Shown here in pieces: positions 1-15,806 of a stretch of DNA of 64,000 nt. This DNA comes from Chloroflexota bacterium (GTDB lineage Bacteria; Chloroflexota; UBA6077; FW602-bin22), in contig SCUE01000007.1 of the NCBI GenBank assembly GCA_004297775.1, positions 62,001 through 126,000 on the forward strand, given 5' to 3'. Position 1 is the first letter of the stretch. Every line of letters starts with the position of its first letter. Below the pieces are notes generated by a model that was not told the origin of the DNA, searched no databases, and saw nothing but the letters and a program-made list of their open reading frames with translations. Both the position numbers and the translations under genes were made by a program.

Positions 1-632
1 AGTCCAACCGCGACGAGACCAAGTCCGCCGAGGGCCACTCCGAGAGCGGGGAGCCCAGGACCGCCGGTTCGCGGCAAGCCTGTAGGAATGCGTGTTGTGA
101 CACCGGACGGCAACCCCGTCGGAGACGGCGCCGGCGTATCGGTCGGCTGTGGCGTGCCGCCGGCGCGCGCCGTCGCGGCCGCTGCCGTCAAGGCTGCACC
201 GGGTTCGCGACCGGGCCAATAGCCGGCAAGGACAATTCGTGGATCCGGCGCGGCAGCTGGGTCCGGTTCCGGCTCGACGGTCAAGACGAACAGATCGAAC
301 TCACGATTGCCGAGAGTGATGATGGCCTGCGTTCGAGACGTGCCGTCCGCCGTGACGTTGAACTTACCGACGCTGGCGCGCTCGCCGGTCCGAGTGTTGA
401 CGAGCCACGCCTGATACAGTTCGTTCGTCAATCGCGGGAGCCCGTCGGTGACGATCAAGACATCACCTTCGACGGCCGTGATCTCGGCGAACCCGCTGGC
501 CGCCTGCGTGCCGTAGTTCACGACACCCGCAATCTTGCTCAACTGGATACGAATCGGCGCGCCATTTGCGAAGGTGGTCGAAACGAGGAGGAAGGCGAGG
601 CAGACGGCCGCCGCGATGCGTGCAATAATCAT
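1..632 (-). CDS. Secreted RskA-C-like protein with LPxTG-like end (partial)
   Basis: The gene runs off the left edge, leaving about 210 codons. Its ATG (632) overlaps the stop of the upstream gene as ATGA, so it is coupled to the flagellar operon. A signal peptide covers roughly residues 1-26. The middle (about residues 60-130) has the pattern YQAWLVN...G.F...TVEPEP, which resembles the extracellular C-terminal domain of anti-sigma-K factors (RskA). A Pro/Thr/Ala-rich stretch follows, then LPRTGG and a hydrophobic run, like a sortase signal. No cytoplasmic anti-sigma helix is present, so it is probably a surface or envelope protein and not an anti-sigma factor. Its function is unknown. The RskA resemblance is by eye. 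Confidence 0.75.
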   Translation of the reverse strand, partial: MIIARIAAAVCLAFLLVSTTFANGAPIRIQLSKIAGVVNYGTQAASGFAEITAVEGDVLIVTDGLPRLTNELYQAWLVNTRTGERASVGKFNVTADGTSRTQAIITLGNREFDLFVLTVEPEPDPAAAPDPRIVLAGYWPGREPGAALTAAAATARAGGTPQPTDTPAPSPTGLPSGVTTRIPTGLPRTGGPGLPALGVALGGLGLVAVG

Positions 633-1330
633 TCGGAGTTATCCCCACTTACGCGCATGATGAGTTCGACTTCTTCGCGACCGAGTCGTGTCGCGCGCGC
701 GATGTCAGTCGCAGACAGACCCTGAGCAGCCAAGCGTCGGACAGTCTGAATCGTTCCGGATTCCTCGCGATCCCCATCGCGTGCATCGTCGGAGCGATCC
801 GCGGGCGCCGCGGTGGACCCAGATGCCTGCCGATAGGCGTTTGCGGCGGTCGCGGTTGTCGAAGTCACGGGCGGTCGCTGGATCGCCGGTTTGGGATCGG
901 CCGGGCCTGACCAGGCCGAAGCAGCCGGCCGCGCGGTCGGGTTCGCCGGTCGGCGCACTTCGGCCGTCGTCGTTCGGCGCGCCGACAGTGCGACGGCTTC
1001 GCGCTCGCTCGGCGCGGCGGGACGCGCCGGCCGTTTCGAGGCGGCGCCGGTTCGTTGCGCGACGGAATCGAGCCGTTGGAGCGCATCGTTCGCCTCATTG
1101 ACGAGCTTCTCGAGGGTTGCCGCGCGGCTGGTCATGTCGGCGTTGATTTGCTCGGCCGCGCTGCGAAGCTCGGTCACCAGCTCGCCGACGTCCGCGTTGA
1201 GGCGCGATCGATCGCCGACCGGATTCTGTCGAGCATCGCGCCGCAGTTGCTGATACATCTGGTGCATCAGGATCAACACGATCAAGAAGGTCAGGAGTTG
1301 GAAGAAGAGCATAAGAGACATCGCACTCAT
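629..1330 (-). CDS. SwrB/YlxL-like membrane-anchored coiled-coil protein
   Basis: A 233-residue protein with one N-terminal membrane segment (about 5-25), a coiled-coil-like acidic/basic stretch (about 28-95), a Pro/Ala/Arg-rich linker, and a C-terminal helix-turn-helix-like segment (about 195-228, TVRRLAAQGLSATDIARATR). This plan matches SwrB/YlxL and DUF2802/DUF6115-type proteins. In Bacillus the swrB gene lies directly downstream of sigD, as here, where the gene starts inside the fliA stop (ATGA). SwrB promotes assembly of the basal body and export gate. Homology is inferred from architecture and position, because the sequence of this family drifts fast. It also overlaps the downstream envelope gene by 4 bp. 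Confidence 0.7.
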   Translation of the reverse strand: MSAMSLMLFFQLLTFLIVLILMHQMYQQLRRDARQNPVGDRSRLNADVGELVTELRSAAEQINADMTSRAATLEKLVNEANDALQRLDSVAQRTGAASKRPARPAAPSEREAVALSARRTTTAEVRRPANPTARPAASAWSGPADPKPAIQRPPVTSTTATAANAYRQASGSTAAPADRSDDARDGDREESGTIQTVRRLAAQGLSATDIARATRLGREEVELIMRVSGDNSE

Positions 1331-13618: not shown

Positions 13619-14614
13619 CTACGGCTTCTGCGCGACCGTCGCCGGTTTGGGAGCCGGGGGCGCGTAGGTCGGTTGCGTCGCGGCGCCGCCGCTCGCCGCG
13701 GCCGGGGCTGGTTTCGTCGGCGCAACCGTCGCGGCCTCGTCGATCGCGGCCTGAGTTTGTCCGGCCGCGGTGTGCGGCGCCATCAGTATGATCTCGACTC
13801 GCCGATTCGTCGCGCGGTTCTCGCGGGAATTGTTCGGCACGATTGGGCGGAACTCGGCGTATCCGGCGATTTCGAATCGATCAGCCGGCAGGCCGACCGT
13901 TTCGGTCATGAAACGCAGCACCGCCCCGGCGCGACCGGTCGACAGCTCCCAGTTTGACGGGAACGTCGCGGTCGAGATCGGAATGTTGTCGGTGTGCCCT
14001 TCGATGCGGACCTTTCCGGTAGTGGTGTCCAGGAGAGTGGCGAGTCGCGCCAGCACGTCGATCCCCTGTTCGCGAATCTCCGCTTTACCGGGATCGAACA
14101 ACAGGCTCCCGGAAAGAGTTATGACAAGCCCTTCCTTCTTGCTGCCGATGCTGACTTGATCCTGCAATCCCATCTGGGCGACCAGTTCGCCGGCCGTCTC
14201 GGCGACGCGAGCGAATGGCGAGATTTGAACTTGGCCCATCCGGCCGCCTTTGCCAATCAGTTGACCGGTGCCCTGTTGACCGAGCATCGCGCCCGTGTTG
14301 AAGGCGCGTTGAAACGCGATCGCCAGTTCGGAGAACTTGGCAGGGTCCTGGGACGCGGACGCCCAGAGAATGAGGAAAAACCCGAACATGAGCGTGACGA
14401 AGTCGGCATAGCTGACCAGCCAGCGACCGCCACTACCGCCGCCGTGCCCGGCCAGCGCGTCGAAATCGCGCTTGACCGTACGAAGGTCGCAGCCGAGTTC
14501 CCGTGCGATGTCGCGCGGTTTCGAGTGTGGTCGCACCTTGAGAATCTTGGAGATGCGTCGCCGACGCTCAGCGGACGTGTACGACCGGGTTTCGCGGACA
14601 ATCTCCTCTGACAT
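13619..14614 (-). CDS. motB: Stator protein MotB with N-terminal helix-turn-helix
   Basis: 331 residues. About 15-55 read as a winged-helix/HTH_11-like segment (AERRRRISKILKVRPHSKP, DIARELGCDLRTVKRDFDAL), followed by a Gly-rich hinge (57-63). The single MotB membrane helix then carries the proton-binding Asp at 71 (SYADFVTLMFGFF). The plug and OmpA-like peptidoglycan-binding domain (about 150-275, GHTDNIP...NRRVEI) and a Pro/Ala-rich tail follow. Between the GTG codon at residue 27 and the membrane helix there is no ATG, GTG or TTG in frame, so the helix cannot be translated without most of the HTH. It follows motA by 16 bp. Confidence 0.95.
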   Translation of the reverse strand: MSEEIVRETRSYTSAERRRRISKILKVRPHSKPRDIARELGCDLRTVKRDFDALAGHGGGSGGRWLVSYADFVTLMFGFFLILWASASQDPAKFSELAIAFQRAFNTGAMLGQQGTGQLIGKGGRMGQVQISPFARVAETAGELVAQMGLQDQVSIGSKKEGLVITLSGSLLFDPGKAEIREQGIDVLARLATLLDTTTGKVRIEGHTDNIPISTATFPSNWELSTGRAGAVLRFMTETVGLPADRFEIAGYAEFRPIVPNNSRENRATNRRVEIILMAPHTAAGQTQAAIDEAATVAPTKPAPAAASGGAATQPTYAPPAPKPATVAQKP

Positions 14615-14630: not shown

Positions 14631-15473
14631 CTAGGCGGCTTGCTGCCCGGCTGGGCCGCTCTCGGAGCGCTGTCGCGCCGCTTCCCGCTGGGCTGGAATG
14701 ATGAATCCCTCGAGCTTCTCGAACACGAGACGCGGATTATCGCCCGCCTGCACCGCCAGGATGCCCTCGACCATCATGTTGCGCATCGCGACTTCGTGGT
14801 GCGTGTTCTCCTTCATCTTCTCCGCAAGCGGAAGGAAGATCAGGTTGGCGGTCGCGAGGCCGAGGAACGTCGCGATGAACGCGGCCGAGATGCTTTGAGC
14901 CAGGACTTCCTGGCCGGCGGAAGGGTCAAGATGCGCCAGAACCGCGATCAGTGAGGACACCGTACCGATGATGCCAAACGTGGGCGCAAATCCGCCCGCT
15001 TGGGTCAGGAACGTCTGAGGGATGTTGTGACGCCGCTCCATCTCCTGGATGTCGATCTCGAGGATCTGGCGAATCACCTCGGGGTCGGTGCCGTCGACGA
15101 CCTGCCGCATCCCCTTCTTCATGAACTCGTTGTGAATCGCCGCCTCCTCCTCTTCGAGTGAGAGGAGACCTTCGCGTCGCGCCTTCTCCGATAGTCGGAC
15201 GAAGAGCAGCGCCAGATCGACCGGAGCCTCGTGGTGGCCCGGCATGAGTGCCTTCAGGATCGCTTTCGGCATCCCGATCGCGCCCTCCAGCGGCGACGTG
15301 ACCGTCGTCGCCGCCATCGTTCCGCCAACGACGAGCATGTAGGCCGCCGCGACCGGACCGGAAGTCGGGACGTACCCGGCCAACGTTCCGAAGTCGCCTC
15401 CCCCTTCGACGACGATCGCCCCAATGACGAGCAAGACGGCGAGCGCGAGCCCGCCAATCGCAGCTAGATCCAC
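14631..15473 (-). CDS. motA: Stator protein MotA
   Basis: 280 residues with four membrane helices (about 4-24, 38-58, 158-180, 192-214). The large cytoplasmic loop between helices 2 and 3 carries charged residues that contact FliG (ARREGLLSLEEEEA). The helix 3-4 signature GGFAPTFGIIGTVSSLI is intact. MotA5MotB2 forms the ion channel that drives rotation. The gene lies 9 bp after flbD. The usual polar residues for a proton-type motor are present, but ion specificity cannot be decided by eye. Confidence 0.96.
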   Translation of the reverse strand: MDLAAIGGLALAVLLVIGAIVVEGGGDFGTLAGYVPTSGPVAAAYMLVVGGTMAATTVTSPLEGAIGMPKAILKALMPGHHEAPVDLALLFVRLSEKARREGLLSLEEEEAAIHNEFMKKGMRQVVDGTDPEVIRQILEIDIQEMERRHNIPQTFLTQAGGFAPTFGIIGTVSSLIAVLAHLDPSAGQEVLAQSISAAFIATFLGLATANLIFLPLAEKMKENTHHEVAMRNMMVEGILAVQAGDNPRLVFEKLEGFIIPAQREAARQRSESGPAGQQAA

Positions 15474-15482
15474 ACAGACTCC

Positions 15483-15689
15483 CTACCGATCGACCAGATG
15501 CGGACCGACCGCGAAAACCCGCCGGCGATAGGCGACGACATCGTCGATTATCTCTCGGGCCGACTCGCGAACCACAAATTTCCTCTGCGACGACAGTGTC
15601 AACACCGTATCCGGATTGGCCTCGATCGTCTCGATCTGATCCGAATTCAGGTAAAACTGCGACCCATCCAACCGATGAACCAGAATCAC
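15483..15689 (-). CDS. flbD: FlbD/SwrD-like small flagellar protein
   Basis: 68 residues, GTG start with GAGGAGG upstream. The FlbD pattern is complete (MILVHRLDGSQFYLNSDQIE, TIEANPDTVLTL, KFVVRES). FlbD/SwrD increases motor torque in Bacillus and sits next to motA-type genes in many flagellar operons. Here it is the first gene of the operon, and the guaB gene diverges from it. Confidence 0.93.
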   Translation of the reverse strand: MILVHRLDGSQFYLNSDQIETIEANPDTVLTLSSQRKFVVRESAREIIDDVVAYRRRVFAVGPHLVDR

Positions 15690-15806
15690 CCTTGCCTCCT
15701 CGGCTAATCTAGCCCGGAGCAGGCCGGCAACCCATAAGGGTTACGTATCAAAAAACCCGCCGGGGCTCCCCAACGATACAATTACGAAAAGCGGGGAGGA
15801 CGGACC
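15690..15806. promoter_or_regulatory. Divergent control region flbD / guaB
   Basis: 117 bp between two divergent units must hold both promoters. Visible elements are two short inverted repeats (GGCTA-ATC-TAGCC at 15702-15714 and AACCC-ATAA-GGGTT at 15729-15742), a TACAAT hexamer at 15777-15782 that could be a guaB -10 box, and the guaB ribosome site GGGGAGGA at 15793-15800. No good -35 match is evident, and no sigma-28 promoter is clear on the minus strand. Confidence 0.5.

Follow-up and report, generated by a model that had tools for sequence, protein, structure and literature searches.

The window, 64,000 nucleotides of contig SCUE01000007.1 from a Chloroflexota bacterium, contains a flagellar gene cluster in which motB encodes a protein with an additional N-terminal helix-turn-helix (HTH) head (Table 1). 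Downstream of motB lie fliL, fliM and fliN, followed by export genes (fliO to flhA) and, further downstream, by flhF, flhG and the genes for a YcgR-type PilZ protein and a flagellar-type sigma factor. Pfam matches confirmed FlbD, MotA, FliL, FliM, FliN, the sigma factor, the PilZ protein and the FlhF-type GTPase; the remaining genes of the cluster, flhG included, were assigned from sequence and position. The small flbD gene lies directly upstream of motA (~15480-15690, minus strand; GTG start, 68 aa; Pfam FlbD, 2e-24) and was missed by length-filtered ORF lists. Downstream of the sigma factor gene, positions 629-1330 (minus strand) encode a membrane-anchored DUF2802/DUF6115 protein that is FipA/SwrB-like, at scores below the Pfam cut-offs; its C-terminus (LSATDIARATRLGREEVELIMRV) is HTH-like by eye.

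Genes for flagellin, FliG and FliR are present elsewhere in the source genome, and the flagellum therefore looks intact from its gene content. A genome search found a single MotB, the headed one. Three genes encoding a FliG C-terminal domain were observed in this genome (C24:187704, C16:83125 and C7:246628). The C24 gene lies in a fliF-fliG-fliH/I/J operon, and the C16 and C7 copies lie away from recognised flagellar genes. Such orphan FliG paralogs beside a single MotB are odd. The genome of a second genus in the same family (G001) has four FliG C-terminal-domain matches. Flagellin_N matches number six in each of the two genomes, several of them at separate places.

Table 1. Features of the motB gene, its product and the adjacent motA gene in the window.
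Feature	Position	Strand	Basis
motB with N-terminal HTH head, 331 aa	13619..14614	minus	ATG at 14614, stop included; ORF and translation
HTH head, residues 1-54	14453..14614	minus	AlphaFold2 (predicted fold), Pfam, conserved in G001
Gly-rich linker AGHGGGSGG, residues 55-63	14426..14452	minus	sequence; pLDDT <50 at residues 59-66
MotB membrane helix, residues 69-87, with proton-binding Asp71	14354..14410	minus	MotB alignment, AlphaFold2
OmpA-like peptidoglycan-binding domain, residues 172-271	13802..14101	minus	Pfam OmpA, 6e-17
motA	14631..15473	minus	Pfam MotA_ExbB, 6e-30; 16 bp upstream of motB, same operon

Every sequence test applied identified the motB product as a MotB. Pfam analysis of the full protein gave MotB_plug at residues 56-105 (3e-17; 62.3 bits, cut-off 24) and OmpA at 62.1 bits (cut-off 27.2). 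Asp71 was invariant across 45 aligned MotBs. The preliminary description, which had read this gene as a MotB with an extra N-terminal head joined by a Gly hinge to the MotB helix and its proton-binding Asp71, was borne out on both points. By MotB topology, the head is cytoplasmic. We conclude that the product is a genuine stator subunit in which a DeoR/FapR/Lrp-type HTH is set before a complete MotB via a Gly-rich linker, and we hold the fusion and the fold of the head with very high confidence.

The fold was assessed from profile matches and predicted structures. The isolated head gave nine weak Pfam matches, the majority of them to HTH-type families, including HTH_11 at residues 17-54 (E 7e-4). 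None of 40 shuffled window heads matched any HTH family in Pfam. The G001 head exceeded the Pfam threshold for HTH_24 (24.3 bits, cut-off 21.9) and did not reach the HTH_11 cut-off. AlphaFold2 placed helices at residues 14-27, 33-40 and 44-55, both in a model built from the two head sequences (mean pLDDT 78) and in the full-length model, where block means of pLDDT were 92-95 over residues 11-50. In a Foldseek search against the PDB, the top match was FapR (probability 1.00, rmsd 1.1 Å over 43 columns), followed by DeoR, TrpR, Rex, Zalpha and Lrp, and almost all matches were DNA-binding HTH domains; the E-values were not significant (best 0.27), as expected at ~40 residues. PDB sequence searches with the head or a two-head profile returned nothing significant (best E 0.065, Zalpha). 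The predicted structure has no beta-hairpin wing after helix 3, and the third helix runs straight into the Gly linker. These data suggest that the head is a compact three-helix HTH. The preliminary description had named the lack of such a fold in a prediction as evidence against its reading; the fold was predicted. Its assignment of residues 15-55 as DeoR/HTH_11-like stood as to the fold, with DeoR among the structural matches, but the HTH_11 score of the window head (19.9 bits) lay under the Pfam cut-off of 25.

Only two genomes, both uncultured, represent the family, and G001 carries the same fused head with the same start in a cluster that is syntenic from the sigma factor gene to guaB. The two heads share 79% amino acid identity, and their codons agree at 54% of third positions and 83-84% of the first two. 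We observed a dN of 0.20 and a dS of 0.88, and the resulting dN/dS of ~0.2 indicates that the head is under purifying selection. Residues R17-R20, K32, R34, R45, T46, K48 and R49 are identical in both heads, and the net charge is positive in both (15 K/R vs 9 D/E in the window; 14 vs 9 in G001).

The head is not a start-site artefact. The preliminary description had argued this from the lack of any ATG, GTG or TTG between residue 27 and the membrane helix, which is correct on the sequence. Comparison with G001 upheld its conclusion. At residue 27 the window has GTG where G001 has GTT; at the joint of head and MotB (residue 54) the two have CTG and GTC, respectively. ATG1, just past the motA stop in both genomes, is therefore the only shared start. 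It is extremely unlikely that the true motB start is internal, with the head untranslated as part of MotB, or that the frame is an assembly error. Residue 54 CTG is a possible rare start, and MotBs of order relatives begin MAGGHGG.S..RWL, which aligns with the joint (ALAGHGGGSGGRWL). However, G001 has GTC at this codon, no clear purine-rich ribosome site precedes the joint, and selection acts at the amino acid level on the head from ATG1 in two genera.

The N-terminus of the order-relative MotBs is also close to the sequence that follows the head (AGHGGGSGGRWL). The resemblance is striking and points to an origin in which the head was placed ahead of an already complete MotB, with the linker as the old MotB N-terminus. 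This evidence is suggestive only, because in the tree the headed MotB pair sits on a long branch whose deep position is unresolved.

We searched for the head in other genomes. A MotB match was present in 45 of 400 genomes of the phylum, and only two of these, the window genome and G001, had the head. The phylum is Chloroflexota, as one locus from a same-phylum genome shares 87% DNA identity over 182 bases with a named Chloroflexi contig. The head was absent from the other ~43 Chloroflexota genomes with a MotB match, and no HTH was found at ~80 MotB loci of named genomes from many phyla, which typically have 10-30 residues before the helix. Judged from these sequences, the head is therefore a lineage-specific addition, restricted to the family among the genomes searched. 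A gain in the family is simpler than loss everywhere else. The preliminary description had also named homologs that start after the head as counting against it; such homologs are the rule outside the family and do not occur inside it, the pattern of a lineage-specific gain and not of a mis-called start. An upstream match in one further genome (G011; query 14-282) was a chance match that runs through stop codons and begins inside the end of motA. A search for paralogs of the head in the source genome gave three other matches (E 0.28-0.7), with no HTH protein among the translations checked; a candidate near a fliG gene was an unlikely reading frame. Among open-licence papers, we found no description of a MotB with an HTH. 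An HTH domain was thus found in no other MotB of the material searched, which covered genome collections and literature in part.

We compared the protein with known systems. Like other MotBs, it has a membrane helix with the critical Asp, a wall-binding OmpA domain and an operon shared with motA; unlike them, it adds a 54-residue head. The head resembles FapR-, DeoR- and Lrp-type HTH domains in its predicted three-helix fold and recognition-helix pattern, but it lacks a wing and an effector domain, it is attached to a membrane stator, and DNA binding is putative here. DNA binders of the ToxR/CadC type are laid out as an HTH pair on a dimeric membrane protein, and so is RodZ. ToxR and CadC share the topology of a cytoplasmic N-terminal HTH, a single membrane helix and a periplasmic domain, but their HTH is OmpR-like and winged, whereas the membrane and periplasmic part of the window protein is a proton-channel stator subunit; Pfam gave no Trans_reg_C (OmpR-type winged HTH) match in the window protein. 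RodZ likewise has a cytoplasmic HTH, one membrane helix and a periplasmic part. Its HTH belongs to another family and it has no MotB parts; by Pfam profiles, the full window protein matched neither HTH_25/XRE-type HTH nor a DUF4115-type periplasmic domain. The headed MotB therefore lacks the defining features of both ToxR/CadC and RodZ.

What the head binds must be judged from its sequence and predicted structure, and we slightly favour DNA over a protein partner because the recognition helix keeps a transcription-factor pattern, RTVKRDFDAL. Two order relatives have regulator-like proteins with MTIHRDLDAL and RTIQRDLQAL at the corresponding place, and the head shows 39-40% identity to these proteins over 44-48 residues. 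Both heads carry identical Arg and Lys residues at the positions expected to face DNA, although their excess conservation was not significant with two sequences (p 0.07). The DNA-binding HTH fold matches, the positive charge, and the head, start and synteny shared with G001 were also counted in favour. Counted against were the absence of a wing and the capacity of HTH folds to bind proteins. A search for near-perfect palindromes (arms of 8 bases with one mismatch or none) upstream of motA in the window, the only region searched, found none, and palindrome candidates in G001 therefore have no window counterpart. In addition, the linker between head and membrane helix is short (~9 residues), which may keep the heads beside the MotA ring and out of reach of DNA. 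Overall, we regard DNA binding by the paired heads as a tentative reading, with a chance somewhat short of even. The preliminary description had offered DNA binding and a link to gene control as inference, with protein binding as the alternative, and these roles stay putative here.

The same placement would suit a protein-docking module that, in the manner of RodZ, recruits or gates stators via FlhF, FlhG, YcgR, a FliG paralog or MreB, and such a role is quite possible. The RodZ HTH binds MreB, and RodZ has the same order of parts. The head would sit beside MotA, well placed for protein contacts, and a YcgR-type protein, FlhF and FlhG (the last by position and sequence) are encoded in the same cluster. 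The same operon encodes the DUF2802/DUF6115 protein, which resembles FipA; in gammaproteobacteria, FlhF is bound by the cytoplasmic DUF2802 domain of FipA (PMC11620751). The head has no sequence similarity to the DUF2802/DUF6115 protein, which speaks against docking, as do the strong positive charge and the DeoR/WYL-type DNA-binding pattern of the recognition helix. It is rather improbable that the head serves structurally, as a cap or spacer inside the MotA ring, a neutral gain kept by descent that, for example, stabilises assembly or limits leakage without a specific ligand. Its confinement to one family, its closeness to the membrane and the flexible linker would fit a cap. So would the long branch of the headed MotB pair, since with its placement unsettled the stator may differ in other ways too. 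However, the dN/dS of ~0.2 and an HTH core almost unchanged across genera argue for a constrained surface and not merely a folded plug.

If the paired heads do bind DNA, a mechanism can be proposed. In described stators, five MotA subunits surround an axle made of two MotB helices, and the unit is attached to the wall through the OmpA domain (PMC9389320, PMC11940548). The headed MotB would likewise be the dimeric, non-rotating axle of a MotA5:MotB2 unit. Because MotB is a dimer, two heads per stator would lie next to each other facing the cytoplasm, level with the MotA ring or beneath it, and the MotB dimer would stand in for the dimerisation domain of a transcription factor. Wall-anchored or free stators could then tether or regulate a promoter, as ToxR/CadC-type regulators do, and stator assembly or load would thereby be coupled to gene expression. 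Membrane-bound DNA-binding regulators have been described (PMC5430869). The full proposal, in which the headed MotB doubles as stator subunit and membrane-bound transcription factor, and wall binding or load alters whether the paired heads hold a promoter, is speculative and, taken as a whole, unlikely.

If this proposal were true, genes would receive a direct report from the motor on its assembly or mechanical state. Load is sensed through stator exchange, and in surface sensing the route from mechanical state to gene expression is an open question. Such a route would be very direct if the stator subunit itself contained a domain of DNA-binding type. A head that binds protein instead would still offer a new means of recruiting or regulating stators.
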